A DNA stretch of 64,000 bases, taken from contig NZ_VRYE01000005.1 of NCBI RefSeq assembly GCF_008041835.1, positions 1-64,000 on the forward strand, given 5' to 3'. The notes under the pieces were generated by a model. That model was not told the DNA's origin. It made no database searches and saw nothing but the letters and a program-made list of their open reading frames with translations. Positions 1-11,676 of the stretch are shown piece after piece. A program made the translations under genes and the position numbers. The stretch comes from Ectopseudomonas mendocina (lineage in GTDB: Bacteria > Pseudomonadota > Gammaproteobacteria > Pseudomonadales > Pseudomonadaceae). Within the stretch, counting starts at the first letter, position 1, and every line of letters starts with the position of its first letter.

Positions 1-211
1 TGGCATAGCCGTAGATCAGCAACGACAGCAACATAGCCGGATGGTAGGCAGCGCTGCCACGGCCCGCATAGACGCTCTCCAGCTTCGACAGATCCAGGCC
101 CTCTACGACCTCCACCACGTAGCGCGCCAAATGTGACTCGGGCAGCCAGTCCTGCACCGACGGCGGGAGCAAGTAGTCGATTTCGCGGTTTATCGGTCGA
201 AAGCGGCTCAT
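1..211 (-). CDS. IS1182-family transposase, N-terminal fragment (partial)
   Basis: The minus strand reads 70 codons from an ATG at 211 and runs off the left edge. The product begins MSRFRPINREIDYLLPPSVQ and continues with DWLPESHLARYVVEV and AYHPAMLLSLLIYGYA. These match the conserved N-terminus of IS1182-type DDE transposases: an MSRFRP(I/V)(N/D)R start, a YLLPPS segment and a HPxMLLxLLIYGY block. The DDE catalytic residues lie further on and are outside the window, so whether the transposase is intact cannot be judged. Confidence 0.85.
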   Translation of the reverse strand, partial: MSRFRPINREIDYLLPPSVQDWLPESHLARYVVEVVEGLDLSKLESVYAGRGSAAYHPAMLLSLLIYGYA

Positions 212-1031: not shown

Positions 1032-2411
1032 TTACACGGTATGCAGGTACCAGTTGTATTCGAGGTCGGAGATGGTGGTCTCGAACTCCTGCAGCTCGGC
1101 TTCCTTGCAGGCGACGAAGATGTCGATGTACTTCGAGCCGATGTACTTGTTCATCACCTCGCTGTCGTCCAGCTCGCGCAGGGCATCGCGCAGGTTGTTC
1201 GGCAGGCTGGGCTCGAGCTGTTCGTAGGCGTTGCCCTCGATCGGCTCGCCCGGTTCGATCTGGTTGGTCAGGCCATGGTGAATACCGGCAAGGATCGACG
1301 CCAGCATCAGGTAGGGGTTGGCATCGGCGCCGGCCACGCGATGTTCGATGCGCACGGCATCCGGACTGCCGGTGGGGATGCGAACGGCCACGGTGCGGTT
1401 GTCCAGTGCCCAGCTCGGTGCGTTGGGCACGTAGAACTGTGCGCCGAAGCGGCGGTAGGAGTTGACGTTGGGGCAGAGGAAGGCCATCGACGCGGCCATG
1501 GTATCGAGGATGCCGCCCACGGCATGGCGCAGCGAGCTGTTCTGCAGCGGATCGTCGGCGGCGAAGATGTTCTTGCCGGTCTTCTTGTCCAGCAGCGAGA
1601 TGTGCACGTGCAGACCGTTGCCCGCCTGGCCCGGGTAGGGCTTGGCCATGAAGGTGGAATCCATCTCATGGTCGTAGGCGATGTTCTTGATCAGACGCTT
1701 GAGTAGCAGCGCATAGTCGCAGGCCTTGATGGCGTCTTCGACGTGATGCAGGTTGACTTCGAACTGTGCCGGGGCGCTTTCCTTGACGATGGCATCGGCC
1801 GGGATGCCCTGTTCCTTGGCGGCTTCGAGCATGTCCTGCAGGCAGTCGACGTACTCGTCGAGGTCGTCGATCAGATAGACCTGGGTGGAGTGCGGGCGCT
1901 TGCCGGAGATCGGCGAGCGCGGCGGCTGCGGGCGGCCGTTCACGTTCTCCTGGTCGATCAGGTAGAACTCCAGTTCGAAGGCTGCGCAGATACGCAGGCC
2001 CAGTTCGTCGAACTTCTGCACCACCTGGCGCAATACCTCGCGCGGGTCGGCGAAGAAAGGCGTGCCGTCCAGCTCGTGCATGGTCATCAACAGTTGCGCG
2101 GTCGGGCGCTTCTGCCAGGGTTCGTTGCACAGGGTATTGGGGATGGGGAAGCAGATACGGTCGGCGTCGCCGATGTCCAGGCCGAGGCCGGTGCTTTCGA
2201 CGGTGGAGCCGTTGATGTCCAGGGCAAAGAGCGAGGCCGGCAGGTTGATGCCTTTCTCGTACACCTTGTGCAGGGCATTGCGGTCGATGCGCTTGCCGCG
2301 CACCACACCATTCATATCTGCAATAAGAAGGTCGACGAACTGGACCTCGGGATGTTCCTTGAGGAACGCGTTCGCTTCGTTAAGCTGAACGGCACGCGGG
2401 GGTACCGACAT
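1032..2411 (-). CDS. spuI: Glutamine synthetase-family gamma-glutamylpolyamine synthetase (SpuI-like)
   Basis: This 459-aa enzyme of the glutamine synthetase superfamily probably uses ATP to couple glutamate to putrescine or another polyamine, the first step of the gamma-glutamylation route. The N-terminal beta-grasp region (about 20-110) is followed by the catalytic barrel with metal-binding glutamates in AAFELEFYL (143-151), GLHVHISL (266-273) and GADANPYL in the C-terminal part. It lacks the adenylylation-loop features of GlnA. The start at 2411 is preceded by AAGGTG; the reading frame extends ten codons further without a better site. It is divergent from spuB, the same arrangement as P. 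aeruginosa spuI. The exact amine substrate is inferred from family and neighbourhood. Confidence 0.85.
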   Translation of the reverse strand: MSVPPRAVQLNEANAFLKEHPEVQFVDLLIADMNGVVRGKRIDRNALHKVYEKGINLPASLFALDINGSTVESTGLGLDIGDADRICFPIPNTLCNEPWQKRPTAQLLMTMHELDGTPFFADPREVLRQVVQKFDELGLRICAAFELEFYLIDQENVNGRPQPPRSPISGKRPHSTQVYLIDDLDEYVDCLQDMLEAAKEQGIPADAIVKESAPAQFEVNLHHVEDAIKACDYALLLKRLIKNIAYDHEMDSTFMAKPYPGQAGNGLHVHISLLDKKTGKNIFAADDPLQNSSLRHAVGGILDTMAASMAFLCPNVNSYRRFGAQFYVPNAPSWALDNRTVAVRIPTGSPDAVRIEHRVAGADANPYLMLASILAGIHHGLTNQIEPGEPIEGNAYEQLEPSLPNNLRDALRELDDSEVMNKYIGSKYIDIFVACKEAELQEFETTISDLEYNWYLHTV

Positions 2412-2687: not shown

Positions 2688-3164
2688 ATGTTTTGCCTGC
2701 CGGCCATCGGCGTCAGCGCTTGTGCCAGGACCATCGGTCACGCTACCTCTACCCGCAGCAGCGAGGCGAGTCGGCCCCTCATGCGGGTCCGAGTGGCCAT
2801 GAACCTGTCCGCTGCCATGCGGCAACATCCTTTCTGTGCGACCGCCGCGTCGCGCGACCTGTCTGACCAGGCGTTTCGTTCATTGCATACCCTGCACGAT
2901 AGCGTACGTGGCCGCATACCGCTGCCTGGCGTGCACCTTGGCGCGCCTCCTGCAGTGTGCAAACCACTGGCTGGTTTCGCTGGGCGCGCGCTAGGCCGCG
3001 AGATAGACAGCTCGATGTTCGACGGCAAGGGTGAGCGATTTTATTTCGGTGGAGTGAAATGCAAGGTGCCGGAGGTGCCACACCCCTAGTAGCATCCACA
3101 CGAATATCTCGCCTTCTTCCAGGCCTTTGGTGAGGCTTGCAGGGAGAGGGCGGGGCAACGCTGA
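2688..3164 (+). pseudogene. spuA: Remnant of spuA, gamma-glutamyl-GABA hydrolase (class I glutamine amidotransferase-like)
   Basis: The reading frame starts MFCLPAIGVSACARTIGHA, which resembles the LPxIGVxAC(T/A)xxIG start of SpuA/PuuD-type hydrolases. After 133 codons come two tandem stops (TAGTAG, 3087-3092). The same frame then resumes with HPHEYLAFFQAFGEACRERA and a TGA at 3162-3164, which matches the usual (N)PxYLAxFQAFGxACRxRA C-terminus. Total length is about 158 codons, against roughly 250 for the family. The catalytic parts (the CRG nucleophile elbow and the QWHPEW histidine/glutamate motif) are absent, and the middle reads as low-similarity sequence. The remnant occupies exactly the spuA place between spuI and spuB. 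An intact copy could exist elsewhere. Confidence 0.7.
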
Positions 3165-3206: not shown

Positions 3207-4565
3207 ATGAGTACCAAGCTAGACCAGCTCACGAGCTGGCTGAAAGAACGCAAAATCACCGAAGTCGAATGCCTGATCAGCGACCTGACCGGCATTGCCC
3301 GCGGCAAGATCTCGCCGACCAACAAGTTCCTCGACGAGAAGGGCATGCGCCTGCCCGAGAGCGTGCTGCTGCAGACCGTGACCGGCGACTACGTCGAGGA
3401 CGACATCTATTACGACCTGCTGGACGAAGCGGACATCGACATGTTCTGCCGTCCGGACGCCAACGCTGTATTCGTCGTGCCCTGGGCCATCGAGCCCACC
3501 GCCATGGTGATCCACGACACCTTCGACAAGCAGGGCAACCCCATCGAGCTGTCGCCGCGCAACATCCTCAAGAAAGTGCTGCAGATGTATGCCGACAAGG
3601 GCTGGAAGCCCATCGTCGCACCGGAGATGGAGTTCTACCTGACCAAGCGCAACAGTGACCCGGACTTCCCCCTGGTGGCGCCAGTAGGACGCTCCGGTCG
3701 GCCGGAAACCGGTCGTCAGAGTTTCTCCATCGACGCGGCGAACGAGTTCGACCCGCTGTTCGAAGACATGTACGACTGGTGCGAACTGCAAGGCCTGGAC
3801 CTGGACACCCTGATCCACGAAGAAGGCCCGGCGCAGATGGAAATCAACTTCCGCCATGGCGATGCGCTGCACCTGGCGGATCAGATTCTGGTGTTCAAGC
3901 GCACCATGCGTGAAGCCGCGCTCAAGCATGACGTGGCCGCTACCTTCATGGCCAAGCCGATCACCGACGAGCCCGGCAGCGCCATGCACATCCACCAGAG
4001 CGTGGTCGACATCAAGACCGGCAAGAACATCTTCTCCAACGACGACGGAACGATGAGCGAGCTGTTCCTGCATCACATCGGTGGCCTGCAGAAGTACATC
4101 CCCGAGTTGCTGCCGCTGTTCGCGCCCAACGTCAACTCGTTCCGCCGTTTCCTGCCCGACACCTCGGCGCCGGTGAACGTGGAGTGGGGCGAGGAAAACC
4201 GCACCGTGGGCCTGCGCGTGCCGGAGGCCAGCCCGCAGAACCGTCGCGTGGAAAACCGTCTGGCTGGCGCGGACGCCAACCCCTACCTGGTGCTGGCGGC
4301 GACGCTGCTGTGCGGCTACATGGGCATGGTCGGCGGGGTCAAACCCGGCGCGCCGGTCAAGGGGCGTGGTTACGAGCGACGCAATCTGCGTCTGCCGGTG
4401 ACCATCGAGAGCGCCCTGGAGCGCATGGAAGCCTGCAAGGACGCCGAGAAATTCCTCGGCGAGAAGTTCATCCGTGGCTATGTCGCGGTCAAGCGTGCCG
4501 AGCACGAGAACTTCAAGCGGGTGATCAGTTCCTGGGAGCGCGAGTTCCTGTTGTTGTCGGTGTAG
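3207..4565 (+). CDS. spuB: Glutamine synthetase-family gamma-glutamylpolyamine synthetase (SpuB)
   Basis: This 452-aa member of the glutamine synthetase superfamily is predicted to join glutamate to a polyamine with ATP hydrolysis in the cytoplasm. Visible motifs are SDLTGIARGK near residues 25-34, the glutamate-bearing APEMEFYL (138-145), EGPAQMEINF (206-215), MHIHQS (260-265) and GADANPYL in the C-terminal barrel. It is a clear paralogue of the divergent spuI product but not a close duplicate. It is the first intact gene of the spuBCDEFGH series, starting 42 bases after the spuA remnant. A hairpin-forming repeat lies between it and spuC. The choice among putrescine, spermidine and diaminopropane is not readable from sequence. 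Confidence 0.87.
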   Translation: MSTKLDQLTSWLKERKITEVECLISDLTGIARGKISPTNKFLDEKGMRLPESVLLQTVTGDYVEDDIYYDLLDEADIDMFCRPDANAVFVVPWAIEPTAMVIHDTFDKQGNPIELSPRNILKKVLQMYADKGWKPIVAPEMEFYLTKRNSDPDFPLVAPVGRSGRPETGRQSFSIDAANEFDPLFEDMYDWCELQGLDLDTLIHEEGPAQMEINFRHGDALHLADQILVFKRTMREAALKHDVAATFMAKPITDEPGSAMHIHQSVVDIKTGKNIFSNDDGTMSELFLHHIGGLQKYIPELLPLFAPNVNSFRRFLPDTSAPVNVEWGEENRTVGLRVPEASPQNRRVENRLAGADANPYLVLAATLLCGYMGMVGGVKPGAPVKGRGYERRNLRLPVTIESALERMEACKDAEKFLGEKFIRGYVAVKRAEHENFKRVISSWEREFLLLSV

Positions 4566-4692: not shown

Positions 4693-6066
4693 ATGAGCAA
4701 GCAAGCGAACAATCCCAAGACAGCCCAATGGCAGGCCCTGAGCCAGGCCCACCACCTGGCGCCGTTCAGTGACTACAAGCAGCTGGCCGAGAAGGGCCCG
4801 CGCATCATCACTGAAGCGAAGGGCGTGCACCTGTGGGACAGTGAGGGCAACAAGATCCTCGATGGCATGGCCGGCCTGTGGTGCGTGGCCGTGGGCTATG
4901 GCCGCGAGGAGCTGGTCGAAGCTGCCGCTACGCAGATGCGTCAGCTGCCGTTCTACAACACCTTCTTCCAGACCGCGCACCCGCCGGTGCTGGAGCTGGC
5001 CCACGCCATCTCCCAACTGGCACCGGCTGGCATGAACCACGTGTTCTTCACCGGTTCGGGCTCCGAAGGCAATGACACCATGCTGCGCCTGGTGCGCCAC
5101 TACTGGGCGTGCAAGGGGCAGCCTGCGAAGAAGATCATCATCGGTCGCGAGAACGGCTACCACGGCTCCACTGTGGCCGGCGCCAGCCTCGGCGGCATGA
5201 AGTTCATGCACGAGCAGGGCGATCTGCCGATTCCGGGCATCGCCCATATCCCGCAGCCCTACTGGTTCGGCGAGGGCGGCGACCAGTCGCCGGAAGAATT
5301 CGGCATCTGGGCCGCCGATCAGTTGGAGAAGAAAATTCTCGAGCTGGGCGAAGAGAACGTTGCCGCCTTTATCGCCGAGCCGATCCAGGGCGCCGGCGGC
5401 GTGATCATCCCACCGGAGACCTACTGGCCGCGGATCAAGGAAATTCTCGCCAAGTACGACATCCTGTTCGTCGCCGACGAGGTGATCTGCGGTTTCGGCC
5501 GTACCGGCGAGTGGTTCGGCAGCCAGTACTACGACCTCAAGCCCGACCTGATGACCATCGCCAAGGGCCTTACCAGCGGCTACGTGCCGATGGGCGGGCT
5601 GATCGTCAGCGACAAGGTGTTCGATGTGATCGAGGCGCATGGCGACTTCAACCACGGCTTCACCTATTCCGGTCATCCGGTAGCGGCTGCGGTGGGCCTG
5701 GAGAACCTGCGCATTCTCAAGGACGAGGGCATCGTCGAGCGGGTGAAGGCGGAAACGGCACCCTATTTGCAGCGACGACTGCGGGAGCTGGCGGATCATC
5801 CTCTGGTGGGCGAAGTGCGCGGCATCGGCATGCTCGGCGCCATCGAATTGGTGCAGGACAAGGCGACGCGCAAACGTTATCCGGGTGACAAGGCGGTTGG
5901 CATGATCTGCCGCGGCCACTGCTTCAACAACGGTCTGATCATGCGCGCCGTGGGCGACACCATGATCATTGCCCCGCCTCTGGTGATCAGCCAGGCGGAA
6001 ATAGACGAACTGGTGGAAAAAGCGCGCAAGTGCCTGGATCTGACCCTGCGTGACCTGTCGGTCTGA
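4693..6066 (+). CDS. spuC: Polyamine:pyruvate aminotransferase (SpuC)
   Basis: This 457-aa class III PLP-dependent aminotransferase most likely transfers the terminal amino group of putrescine or related amines to pyruvate, giving the aldehyde and alanine. PLP contacts are clear: GSGSEGND (121-128) for the phosphate, NGYHGST (154-160), aspartate in VADEVICGFGRTG (260-272) for the pyridine nitrogen, and the Schiff-base lysine in MTIAKGLTSGY (Lys291). ATG at 4693 is used because AAGG lies 7 bases upstream; a GTG two codons earlier has none. Its length fits P. aeruginosa SpuC. It lies between the synthetase genes and the transport genes, and it works without gamma-glutamylation, so it remains useful although spuA is broken. 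Confidence 0.92.
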   Translation: MSKQANNPKTAQWQALSQAHHLAPFSDYKQLAEKGPRIITEAKGVHLWDSEGNKILDGMAGLWCVAVGYGREELVEAAATQMRQLPFYNTFFQTAHPPVLELAHAISQLAPAGMNHVFFTGSGSEGNDTMLRLVRHYWACKGQPAKKIIIGRENGYHGSTVAGASLGGMKFMHEQGDLPIPGIAHIPQPYWFGEGGDQSPEEFGIWAADQLEKKILELGEENVAAFIAEPIQGAGGVIIPPETYWPRIKEILAKYDILFVADEVICGFGRTGEWFGSQYYDLKPDLMTIAKGLTSGYVPMGGLIVSDKVFDVIEAHGDFNHGFTYSGHPVAAAVGLENLRILKDEGIVERVKAETAPYLQRRLRELADHPLVGEVRGIGMLGAIELVQDKATRKRYPGDKAVGMICRGHCFNNGLIMRAVGDTMIIAPPLVISQAEIDELVEKARKCLDLTLRDLSV

Positions 6067-6104: not shown

Positions 6105-7295
<1,191 letters not shown>

Positions 7296-7336: not shown

Positions 7337-8593
<1,257 letters not shown>

Positions 8594-8646: not shown

Positions 8647-9801
8647 ATGGCTGTTGCCTCCAGCGCCTACAAAAAAGCCCTCGAGGGAGATCAGACACCC
8701 AAAGAGGTGCTGGTCAAGATCGATCGGGTGACCAAGAAGTTCGACGAGACCGTGGCGGTCGACGACGTCTCGCTGACCATCAACAAGGGCGAGATCTTCG
8801 CCCTGCTCGGTGGCTCCGGTTCCGGTAAATCCACGCTGCTGCGCATGCTCGCCGGCTTCGAGCGGCCCACCTCCGGGCGCATCATTCTCGATGGTGTCGA
8901 TATCACCGACATGCCGCCCTATCAGCGGCCGATCAACATGATGTTCCAGTCCTACGCGCTGTTCCCGCACATGACCGTGGCGCAGAACATCGCCTTCGGC
9001 CTGCAGCAGGACAAGCTGCCCAAGGCCGAGATCGAAGAGCGCGTGGCCGAGATGCTCAAGCTGGTGCATATGACCCAGTATGCCAAGCGCAAGCCGCACC
9101 AACTCTCTGGTGGTCAGCGTCAGCGTGTGGCCCTGGCCCGCTCGCTGGCCAAGCGTCCCAAGCTGTTGCTGCTCGACGAGCCGATGGGCGCGCTGGACAA
9201 GAAGCTGCGTTCGCAGATGCAGCTGGAGCTGGTAGAGATCATCGAGCGCGTCGGCGTGACCTGCGTGATGGTCACCCATGATCAGGAAGAGGCCATGACC
9301 ATGGCCCAGCGCATCGCCATCATGCACCTGGGCTGGATCGCCCAGACCGGCAGCCCGGTGGACATCTACGAGACCCCGACCAGTCGCCTGGTGTGCGAAT
9401 TCATCGGCAACGTCAACCTGTTCGACGGTCAGATCGTCAGCGACGAGGCCGACCACGCGATCATCGATTGTCCGCACCTGGACAAGCCGATCTACATTGG
9501 CCACGGCGTCAGCACCCGTGCCGAGGACAAGAAGGTCAGCTACGCCCTGCGTCCGGAAAAACTGCTGATGGCCACCGCCTTGCCGGCCGACCACGAGCAC
9601 CCCGAGTACAACTGGAGCCGCGGCCACGTACACGACATCGCCTACCTCGGTGGCCACTCGGTGTACCACGTCAAGCTCACCTCCGGGCAGATCGTGCAGT
9701 GCTTCATCGCCAACGCCGAGCGCCGCGGCAAGCGCCCGACCTGGGACGATCCGGTGGTGGTGTACTGGGAAGACGACAGCGGCGTGGTACTGCAATCATG
9801 A
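8647..9801 (+). CDS. spuF: Polyamine ABC transporter ATP-binding protein (SpuF/PotG type)
   Basis: This 384-aa ATPase energises polyamine import at the inner membrane. It has Walker A GGSGSGKST (55-63), Q-loop FQSYALFPHM, signature LSGGQRQR (153-160), Walker B LLLLDEP (173-179) and the switch-histidine segment VTHDQEEAM. The C-terminal third (about 290-380) looks like a TOBE-type regulatory domain, including LRPEK. It follows spuE by 53 bases and overlaps spuG by 4 bases (ATGA), indicating translational coupling. Confidence 0.92.
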   Translation: MAVASSAYKKALEGDQTPKEVLVKIDRVTKKFDETVAVDDVSLTINKGEIFALLGGSGSGKSTLLRMLAGFERPTSGRIILDGVDITDMPPYQRPINMMFQSYALFPHMTVAQNIAFGLQQDKLPKAEIEERVAEMLKLVHMTQYAKRKPHQLSGGQRQRVALARSLAKRPKLLLLDEPMGALDKKLRSQMQLELVEIIERVGVTCVMVTHDQEEAMTMAQRIAIMHLGWIAQTGSPVDIYETPTSRLVCEFIGNVNLFDGQIVSDEADHAIIDCPHLDKPIYIGHGVSTRAEDKKVSYALRPEKLLMATALPADHEHPEYNWSRGHVHDIAYLGGHSVYHVKLTSGQIVQCFIANAERRGKRPTWDDPVVVYWEDDSGVVLQS

Positions 9802-10706
9802 AACCGAGCAAACTGGCGCGCTATCTGCCCACTGGGCGGCATGCCGTTATCGGCATTCCGTTCCTCTGGCTGTTCCTGTTCTTCCTGTTGCCCTTCGTCA
9901 TCGTGCTGAAGATCAGCTTCGCCGAAGCCGACGTGGCAATTCCGCCCTACACGGAAATCTACCAGTGGGCGGACAACAAGCTGACGCTGCTGCTGAACTT
10001 CGGCAACTACATCTTCCTCAGCGAAGATGCCCTGTACCTGTCGGCCTATCTGGGCTCGCTGCAGATCGCCTTCTTCAGCACGCTGCTGTGTCTGGTGATC
10101 GGCTATCCGATGGCCTATGCCATCGCCCGCGCGCCGAAGGAACGCCAGACCGTTCTGCTGCTGCTGATCATGATGCCGACCTGGACCGCGATCCTGATCC
10201 GCGTCTATGCCTGGATGGGCATTCTCGGCAACAACGGCCTGCTCAACAGCCTGCTGATGGGTATCGGCCTGATCGACACGCCGCTGCAGATCCTCAACAC
10301 CAACACCGCGGTATACATCGGTGTGGTTTATTCGTACCTGCCGTTCATGATCCTGCCGCTCTACGCCAACCTGGTGAAGCACGATCTCAGCCTGCTGGAA
10401 GCTGCCTCCGACCTGGGTTCGAGCAACTTCAACAACTTCTGGCGGATCACCGTGCCGCTGTCGAAGAACGGCATCATCGCCGGCTCCATGCTGGTGTTCA
10501 TCCCGGTGGTGGGTGAGTTCGTCATCCCCGAACTGCTCGGCGGCCCGGAGACCCTGATGATCGGCAAGGTGCTGTGGCAGGAGTTCTTCAACAACCGCGA
10601 CTGGCCGGTGGCGTCCGCCCTGGCGGTGGTGATGCTGGCGATCCTGATCGTGCCGATCATCCTGTTCAACCGTAACCAAGCGAAAGAGCTGGAGGGGCGG
10701 CCATGA
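9798..10706 (+). CDS. spuG: Polyamine ABC transporter permease (SpuG/PotH type)
   Basis: This 302-aa inner-membrane permease has about six hydrophobic segments, the first around residues 18-38. The EAA-type cytoplasmic loop, EAASDLGSSNFNNFWRITVPL, contacts the ATPase. With SpuH it forms the polyamine channel. The start ATG overlaps the spuF stop. The gene ends AKELEGRP-stop. An altered second copy of this end lies just before spuH, so the two permease genes, which would otherwise overlap, are separated by 82 bases. Confidence 0.92.
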   Translation: MKPSKLARYLPTGRHAVIGIPFLWLFLFFLLPFVIVLKISFAEADVAIPPYTEIYQWADNKLTLLLNFGNYIFLSEDALYLSAYLGSLQIAFFSTLLCLVIGYPMAYAIARAPKERQTVLLLLIMMPTWTAILIRVYAWMGILGNNGLLNSLLMGIGLIDTPLQILNTNTAVYIGVVYSYLPFMILPLYANLVKHDLSLLEAASDLGSSNFNNFWRITVPLSKNGIIAGSMLVFIPVVGEFVIPELLGGPETLMIGKVLWQEFFNNRDWPVASALAVVMLAILIVPIILFNRNQAKELEGRP

Positions 10707-10792
10707 TTCGTTCAATCACTGTGAGCCCATCATTCTCTTCAACCGGCTTTCCAACCAGAAGCGTGGCCAAAGAGCTGGAGGGCCGCCCATGA
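10707..10792 (+). repeat. Diverged duplicate of the spuG 3' end preceding spuH
   Basis: Bases 10762-10792 again encode (V)AKELEGRP followed by TGA, the same ending as spuG, and this second TGA overlaps the spuH ATG as a normal coupled pair would. Further upstream, about 10729-10756 (CCATCATTCTCTTCAACCGG) resembles the spuG sequence that encodes PIILFNR at 10655-10672, but with indels and substitutions that break the frame. The unit is therefore a decayed second copy of roughly the last 60-75 bases of spuG. Confidence 0.75.
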
Positions 10793-11676
10793 AGCGTTTC
10801 AGTTTCTCCAGCATCATGCTCTGGGCGGGGCTGGCATTCATCTACCTGCCCATGGTCATCCTGGTCATCTACTCGTTCAACGCCTCGCGGCTGGTAACGG
10901 TGTGGGGCGGCTGGTCGGTGAAGTGGTACGTCGGCCTGCTGGACAACACCCAGCTGATGAACTCGGTGATGCGCTCTCTGGAAATCGCCTGCTACACCGC
11001 CATTGCGGCGGTGGCGCTGGGCACCCTGGCGGCCTTCGTGCTGACCCGCATCACCCACTTCAAGGGACGCACGCTGTTCGGTGGCCTGGTCACCGCGCCG
11101 CTGGTGATGCCGGAAGTGATCACCGGTCTGTCGCTGCTGCTGCTGTTCGTGCTGATGGCGCAGCTGATCGGCTGGCCGATGCAGCGTGGCATGACCACCA
11201 TCTGGATCGCCCACACCACCTTCTGCTCGGCCTATGTGGCGGTGGTGGTGTCGTCGCGCCTGCGTGAGCTGGACATGTCCATCGAAGAGGCCGCCATGGA
11301 CCTGGGCGCGCGGCCATGGAAGGTGTTCTTCCTGATCACCGTGCCGATGATCGCGCCGTCGCTGGCGGCGGGGGCGATGATGTCCTTCGCCCTATCGCTG
11401 GATGACCTGGTGCTGGCCAGCTTCGTCTCCGGTCCCGGCTCCACCACCCTGCCGATGGAGATCTTCTCCGCCGTGCGCCTGGGGGTTAAGCCGGAGATCA
11501 ACGCGGTGGCCAGCCTGATCCTGCTGGCGGTGTCGTTCGCTACCTTCCTGGCCTGGTACTTCGCCCAGCGCGCCGAGGAAAAACGCAAGAAGGCCATGCA
11601 GCAGGCCATGGACGAGACCGCCAATCCGTCCTGGCAGCAGGTCATCGACAGCCGTCGCAATCCTGGCAGCAACTGA
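10789..11676 (+). CDS. spuH: Polyamine ABC transporter permease (SpuH/PotI type)
   Basis: This 295-aa inner-membrane permease is the partner of SpuG. Hydrophobic segments begin at residues 10-27, and the EAA loop reads EEAAMDLGARPWKVFFLITVP. The C-terminus is basic and polar (EEKRKKAMQQAMDE), an ending typical of cytoplasmic tails. The ATG at 10789 overlaps the TGA of the duplicated spuG tail. It is the last gene of the spu cluster, and a terminator-type inverted repeat interrupted by REP-like sequence follows. Confidence 0.92.
   Translation: MKRFSFSSIMLWAGLAFIYLPMVILVIYSFNASRLVTVWGGWSVKWYVGLLDNTQLMNSVMRSLEIACYTAIAAVALGTLAAFVLTRITHFKGRTLFGGLVTAPLVMPEVITGLSLLLLFVLMAQLIGWPMQRGMTTIWIAHTTFCSAYVAVVVSSRLRELDMSIEEAAMDLGARPWKVFFLITVPMIAPSLAAGAMMSFALSLDDLVLASFVSGPGSTTLPMEIFSAVRLGVKPEINAVASLILLAVSFATFLAWYFAQRAEEKRKKAMQQAMDETANPSWQQVIDSRRNPGSN

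Follow-up and report, generated by a model that had tools for sequence, protein, structure and literature searches.

The remnant of spuA between spuI and spuB is, on balance, probably best read as a dead enzyme gene that is kept as a translated leader of spuBCDEFGH and whose transit by ribosomes protects the transcript. The window, meaning the whole stretch of 64,000 nucleotides analyzed here, holds one allele of this remnant. The SpuA enzyme was lost once in the common ancestor of the group to which the window belongs and several more times on other branches of the genus; under this proposal its start region and open frame would have been retained as the translated leader of spuBCDEFGH. Selection would maintain the passage of ribosomes over the several hundred bases from the spuI/spuA control region to spuB, and the encoded amino acids would hardly matter. 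The most likely reason is that untranslated RNA in this interval would be subject to premature (Rho-dependent) termination or to decay before spuB is reached. Both the translation of the frame and its benefit, the protection of the transcript, we infer from comparison of sequences.

The SpuA-derived reading frame and its neighbors

The sequence and its list of open reading frames place the remnant between spuI and spuB, where spuA belongs. SpuA and PauD1 are the names that we take to denote the gamma-glutamyl-GABA hydrolase (Peptidase_C26) of the spuABCDEFGH operon. From the ATG at 2688, frame 0 of the window encodes MFCLPAIGVSAC... and runs for 133 codons to the first TAG; this SpuA-derived ORF (2688..3089, + strand, TAG included) is the proposed translated leader of the spuB operon. 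The stop is double (3087..3092, + strand), with TAG at 3087-3089 followed by TAG at 3090-3092. Beyond it, frame 0 continues as HPHEYLAFFQAFGEACRERAGQR and then meets TGA at 3162-3164.

Comparison with six loci that carry an intact SpuA indicates what has been lost. The distance from the ATG to spuB is 519 bp in the window versus 796-844 bp in these loci, with similar first and last codons, and the intact SpuA at the equivalent site in relatives has 250-265 amino acids. The GICRG nucleophile region, which holds the catalytic cysteine, is absent from the window ORF, and the HPEW site of SpuA reads HP-stop-stop. For the 133-residue product, Pfam gives no family at E≤1 and NCBIfam no model at E≤1e-5, so that no Peptidase_C26 profile is matched. 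The window copy cannot be the SpuA hydrolase. The center is still recognizable by eye and in frame (HDSVRGRIPLP in the window, corresponding to HDSARDATTLPL); since both SpuA-like ends and this center share one frame, the shortening occurred in frame. An earlier note on this DNA, made from the letters alone, had described SpuA-like termini around a short, divergent middle with two tandem stops and had considered the copy dead as a hydrolase. Sequence and intact loci bear out both statements, and comparison with the intact loci finds the ends similar and the middle shortened, with the correction that the frame is preserved.

Strain P818 carries a near-identical allele (99.3% identity to the window in the ORF middle), and a search of a public collection with the double stop plus the next bases finds the junction in 17 contigs; the window allele is no assembly artefact. 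The 17 contigs include P. mendocina, oleovorans, alcaliphila, toyotomiensis, chengduensis, composti, indoloxydans, sediminis, guguanensis, yangonensis, and khazarica; the window-type allele is spread across the P. mendocina/oleovorans group.

Family models identify the neighbors. The divergent gene spuI (1032..2411, - strand) and the gene behind the remnant, spuB (3207..4565, + strand), are both of the glutamylpolyamine synthetase type. They are followed on the + strand by the aminotransferase gene spuC (4693..6066), two genes for PotF-like binding proteins, each SpuD or SpuE (6198..7295 and 7502..8593), and genes for a SpuF-like importer ATPase (8647..9801), a SpuG-like permease (9804..10706, the stretch tested, with an approximate start) and a SpuH-like permease (10789..11676). 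Each matches its family models over nearly the whole length, in agreement with the earlier claim that both synthetases, SpuC and the importer are intact; because most of the best models score below their curated cut-offs, the exact Spu names are assigned from gene order and the usual nomenclature of the operon. On the minus strand at window positions 2-211, a 70-codon open frame runs off the window start. This fragment presumably resembles the start of a transposase, and it has no Pfam match at E≤0.001.

Open frames at the site of spuA

The set of window-type alleles comprises 29 loci, 24 of them distinct after removal of duplicates, and an open frame was not a criterion for inclusion. The double stop served to choose 23 of these alleles; locus L081 was included by similarity, its first TAG being gone and the second closing the frame, and the other 23 all keep the double stop. 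One locus whose contig ends too early (L069) is omitted from all counts. Loci L011 and L012 lack the double stop and are kept outside the 24 although they fall within the window's group on the spuI+spuB tree; they have open frames of 106 and 150 codons. In L012 (genome G008) the frame, lacking the double stop, reaches the old stop of SpuA at its 150 codons.

Frame 0 is open in all 24 distinct alleles, at a length of 126-135 codons. Neutral simulation on the same tree places a stop in 19.9 of the 24 tips on average, and not one of 1000 runs remained stop-free. The other two forward frames contain stops in 24 of 24 alleles and the reverse frames in 21, 21, and 24. A gene overlapping in another frame is therefore rejected, as every such frame is interrupted in at least 21 of the 24. 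In nucleotide alignments blind to codons, all gap runs have lengths divisible by three; depending on the settings there are 9 or 10 internal gaps, with runs of 3, 9, 12, 15, 21, or 24 bases.

A census of the genus extends these observations. It covers 199 distinct Pseudomonas spuI-spuB gaps among the matches listed, a non-random sample in which related genomes are not independent. By motif, SpuA is intact in 80 of these gaps and missing in 119. Every one of the 119 SpuA-less gaps among the matches listed retains an ORF, 58-150 codons long (median 118), and in all of them a homologous ATG, sought between gap bases 260 and 300, lies at bases 275-279. The start-region consensus of the remnants resembles that of the intact loci, with less similarity in the 20 most divergent. 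The ORF stops no more than 150 nt from spuB in 118 of the 119 loci listed, at positions that range from 8 nt inside spuB to 150 nt before it; the exception is L087 at 261 nt. The remnants thus possess both features expected of a leader ORF, a kept start region and an open frame that reaches spuB. In L087 (genome G283), 144 extra nucleotides separate the remnant from spuB. By eye this insertion has imperfect inverted end repeats, as in a small mobile element, and a check found only a 12-nt palindrome near one junction.

Relatedness was reduced by choosing 22 representatives less than 60% identical, from which L087 was excluded owing to its insertion. The first frame-0 stop after codon 25 falls within 150 nt of spuB in 22 of 22, versus 4 and 5 of 22 for the other frames; 300 dinucleotide shuffles reach 6.0 on average and 12 at most. 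With the identity threshold raised to 70%, frame 0 succeeds in 31 of 31, versus 5 and 6 for the other frames and 8.9 (maximum 17) in shuffles. The 150-nt limit was chosen after the distances were known; with a limit of 100 nt the result is 15 of 22 for frame 0 versus 2 and 2 for the other frames, the shuffles giving 3.9 (maximum 9). A few copies (L055, L181) appear by eye to be frameshifted relative to their neighbors, and their frame still ends within 150 nt of spuB. We also simulated neutral evolution for the other remnant shapes, where stop-free outcomes numbered 15 of 1000 runs for the 79-codon group, 0 for 118-122 codons, 81 for 126 codons and 61 for 58/61 codons. As these groups were picked by ORF length or ending, their simulations are partly circular and are set aside; the window-type set and the 22 representatives serve as our evidence for the open frame.

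On a spuI+spuB tree of the 77 of 199 loci with enough flank, the presence or absence of SpuA changes state 7 times, at least 5 of them by supported branches; some of these changes could be regains of SpuA by transfer. The remnants are most likely several retained leaders of separate origin within the genus.

Apparent selection on the frame and alternative readings

Amino-acid constraint was assessed by codon likelihood (our own implementation, with the tree fixed). Intact SpuA gives omega values of 0.145 (17 sequences) and 0.138 (25 sequences), and a value of 1 is rejected with 2dlnL above 1000. For the window-type ORF omega is 1.05 (grid values within 95%, 0.9-1.2). By segment it is 0.83 for the N-terminal 20 codons, 1.12 for the middle and 1.05 for the C-terminal 21 codons (0.7-1.5 for the last), and none of the three differs from 1. 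The neutral rate scale is 0.39 and 0.55 at the two ORF ends versus 1.07 in the middle, which suggests that the ends are conserved at the level of DNA and not of protein. By the median of pairs, the middle diverges 1.6-1.9 times as much as the fourfold sites of spuB and 2.9 times as much as those of spuI. The GC content at the three codon positions, 0.63/0.55/0.62 in remnants versus 0.73/0.45/0.69 in intact SpuA, is flattened, as expected for sequence without protein constraint. The window and genome G283, which carry the same species label, are 99.4% identical in spuI and 94.6% in spuB and only 56.3% in the ORF middle, so that very different sequences seem to be interchangeable at this site; one further locus, L065, looks like a chimera of two alleles. 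Such swaps of alleles are in keeping with a sequence whose content is irrelevant. It is the frame, and not the protein, that selection appears to preserve; if translation itself is the function, one would expect just such a frame, open and unconstrained in its amino acids.

Four other readings were weighed. That the ORF encodes a new, fast-evolving small protein, in which positive and purifying selection average to an omega of 1, we regard as unlikely. It would account for the retention of the frame and of an approximate length of 126-135 codons in the window-type set, and it finds some encouragement in the group of 58/61 codons, whose omega of 0.65 is nominally below 1 (2dlnL 4.7; 6 sequences) and in which some protein constraint is possible. 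The three other remnant shapes give 0.80, 0.85, and 1.16, none different from 1. Against a protein stand the segment values given above, lengths (58-150 codons) and ends that vary by lineage, and the lack of any Pfam or NCBIfam match for the window ORF.

The stop positions bear on a second reading, improbable in our judgment, by which ribosomes leaving the ORF would open or reinitiate at the spuB start site. Such translational coupling suits the lineages in which the stop lies 7-8 nt before spuB or overlaps its start. In the window, however, 117 nt separate the stop from spuB, and the spacing in other lineages is 79-146 nt; such distances are too great for reinitiation as usually understood. 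Given stops that range from 8 nt inside spuB to far upstream of it, strict stop-start coupling fails for some lineages, whereas shielding of the transcript from Rho or RNases can account for the stop positions in all of them. Remnants show no greater excess of C over G, a crude indicator of Rho loading, than intact SpuA does (p 0.41).

Ordinary neutral decay of spuA, with a frame open by chance or by recent descent, is very improbable. The enzyme domain is gone, omega is close to 1 and the middle evolves faster than the fourfold sites of both flanking genes, all of which a pseudogene would satisfy. But stops and frameshifts fail to accumulate: the window-type copies hold no stop at all where about 20 with one are expected, their gaps all come in threes, and the same pattern recurs in lineages with a separate loss of SpuA. 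Neutral decay is therefore rejected. The earlier note had called spuA a pseudogene, which holds as far as the enzyme is concerned and fails for the frame, open in every distinct window-type copy and in the other SpuA-less lineages too. Most implausible is a ribosome-arrest or attenuator peptide that senses polyamines or amino acids, as SpeFL and TnaC do; the operon does handle polyamines, and in most window-type ORFs the double stop is preceded by ...EV-x-(H/C/Y)P, but we reject it since the last 21 codons show DNA-like conservation without constraint on amino acids, two window-type alleles end in CS and one in PG, and the ends in other lineages are quite different.

The translated leader that we favor resembles SpuA/PauD1 in position, start region, reading frame, neighbors and, as DNA, the last 24 codons; it differs in having 133 rather than 250-265 codons, an omega of about 1 rather than 0.14, and neither nucleophile, HPE motif nor Pfam match. 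A partial parallel is uPPE2 of Mycobacterium tuberculosis, for which the excerpts available of PMC11260477 describe an upstream ORF whose translation the downstream gene needs, and name Rho-dependent termination or coupling as possible reasons. On the strength of those excerpts, the two share an ORF ahead of a gene and these candidate reasons. The proposed leader differs from uPPE2 in its descent from an enzyme gene, its occurrence in several lineages, its 58-150 codons and its free amino acids. In the open-access literature searched, we found no report of a spuA remnant or leader ORF.

An open frame with a dN/dS of 1 is usually read as a gene or a pseudogene, and the SpuA remnant seems to be neither; dN/dS alone cannot separate dead genes from leaders. 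The SpuA-less lineages amount to a replicated natural experiment on what untranslated RNA costs in an operon, with several lineages, one site and one outcome, and what looks like a pseudogene at the head of an operon may be required by the genes downstream. We advance more tentatively, as plausible but short of probable, the idea of a genus-wide class of "sequence-free" genes, kept after repeated loss of the enzyme only because ribosomes must cross them. If such a class exists, its ORFs would drift beyond recognition and be swapped between strains and yet stay open, and annotation would give a pseudogene, a hypothetical protein or nothing.

Conserved DNA at the two ends and the fate of the hydrolase step

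Both ends of the former gene are conserved as DNA. Behind the double stop, the former 3' end of SpuA (3093..3164, + strand) is nearly invariant: among remnants the mean identity reaches 96.7% over the 81 bp from the stop, while the middle of the ORF averages 71.1%. In those relatives of the window that have an intact spuA (17 sequences), the final 23 codons likewise have a neutral rate scale of 0.30 versus 2.79 in the gene body, and this drop is much weaker in the set of 25 intact SpuA genes from the other large lineage. The tail at 3093-3164 and the intact spuA 3' ends of relatives (L013-L029) contain several AGG codons, which are rare in Pseudomonas; the stretch is retained both where it is coding, as in intact spuA, and where it is non-coding, as behind the stop of the remnants. 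A hairpin is predicted by folding within the tail (3109..3155, + strand). The folding of the tail is not unusual (z -1.3; 17 of 200 shuffles fold equally well), and covariation is scant in a nearly invariant sequence with few informative changes.

At the other end, both intact sets keep their synonymous choices in the first 20 codons: among pairs with the same residue, fractions of 0.27 and 0.19 use different codons, versus mostly 0.3-0.55 further along intact SpuA. A P1 RNA (Rfam RF00623; 2504..2684, - strand; 146 bits) lies at the spuI/spuA junction of the window and also occurs at 9 of the 13 other loci searched, some with SpuA and some without. It is an element known from Pseudomonas, separate from the ORF and on the opposite strand. 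Its predicted 5' end is 3 nt before the ORF ATG, so the P1 promoter may overlap the first codons, and this proximity may explain their conservation as DNA. Pairing of the P1 RNA with the conserved tail is matched by 8 of 100 shuffled tails. A search for promoter and terminator patterns returned none on the + strand and one promoter-like site on the - strand.

The earlier note had also suggested that the step might be supplied by a second PuuD-like hydrolase, and a search of the rest of the genome found one. Its gene lies on another contig (G000:C220:3114-3908, stop included), encodes 264 amino acids and matches PF07722 at E 4.8e-65, the sole other strong match in the genome. The best NCBIfam model is that of gamma-glutamyl-GABA hydrolase (PRK11366), at 195 bits versus a cut-off of 266. 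Four weaker PF07722 matches (E 1e-5 to 1e-8) look by eye like GuaA, TrpG, PyrG, and CarA. A second enzyme of the PuuD type, encoded elsewhere in the genome, probably performs the step lost with SpuA.

We searched 73 genomes for such hydrolases, 47 without and 26 with SpuA at the locus, at a threshold of E≤1e-20. A match is present in 65 of the 73, which in the SpuA-bearing genomes may be SpuA itself. Of the 16 SpuA-less genomes in the window's group, 15 have the hydrolase at 86-100% identity. The other 31 have a relative at 71-82% in 10 cases and at 40-44% in 14. At the same threshold no relative was found in 8 of the 47 SpuA-less genomes: G008, from the window's group, and the seven others G122, G040, G017, G031, G004, G043, and G026. 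The alternative in the earlier note, that the step is lost and catabolism proceeds by SpuC, is therefore not needed for the window's genome and may apply to these eight.

In P. putida spuA sits in another cluster (PP_2179 in KT2440), according to excerpts of PMC10606097 and PMC11879879, and the available part of PMC10606097 treats this displacement as a rearrangement. As far as these excerpts go, P. putida and the SpuA-less loci are alike in that spuA is gone from the operon and spuBCDEFGH stays; the excerpts say nothing of an ORF remaining at the original site. Three of our genomes, G036, G034, and G011, hold a stretch of 47 bp that weakly matches the spuI/spuA upstream region (E about 1e-4) at G036:C1:3965763, G034:C1:4617314, and G011:C2:443153, in each case ending about 50 bp before a hydrolase match of 42-43% identity. 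This arrangement fits a relocation of spuA together with its control region, as in the P. putida case described in those excerpts (PMC10606097, PMC11879879).
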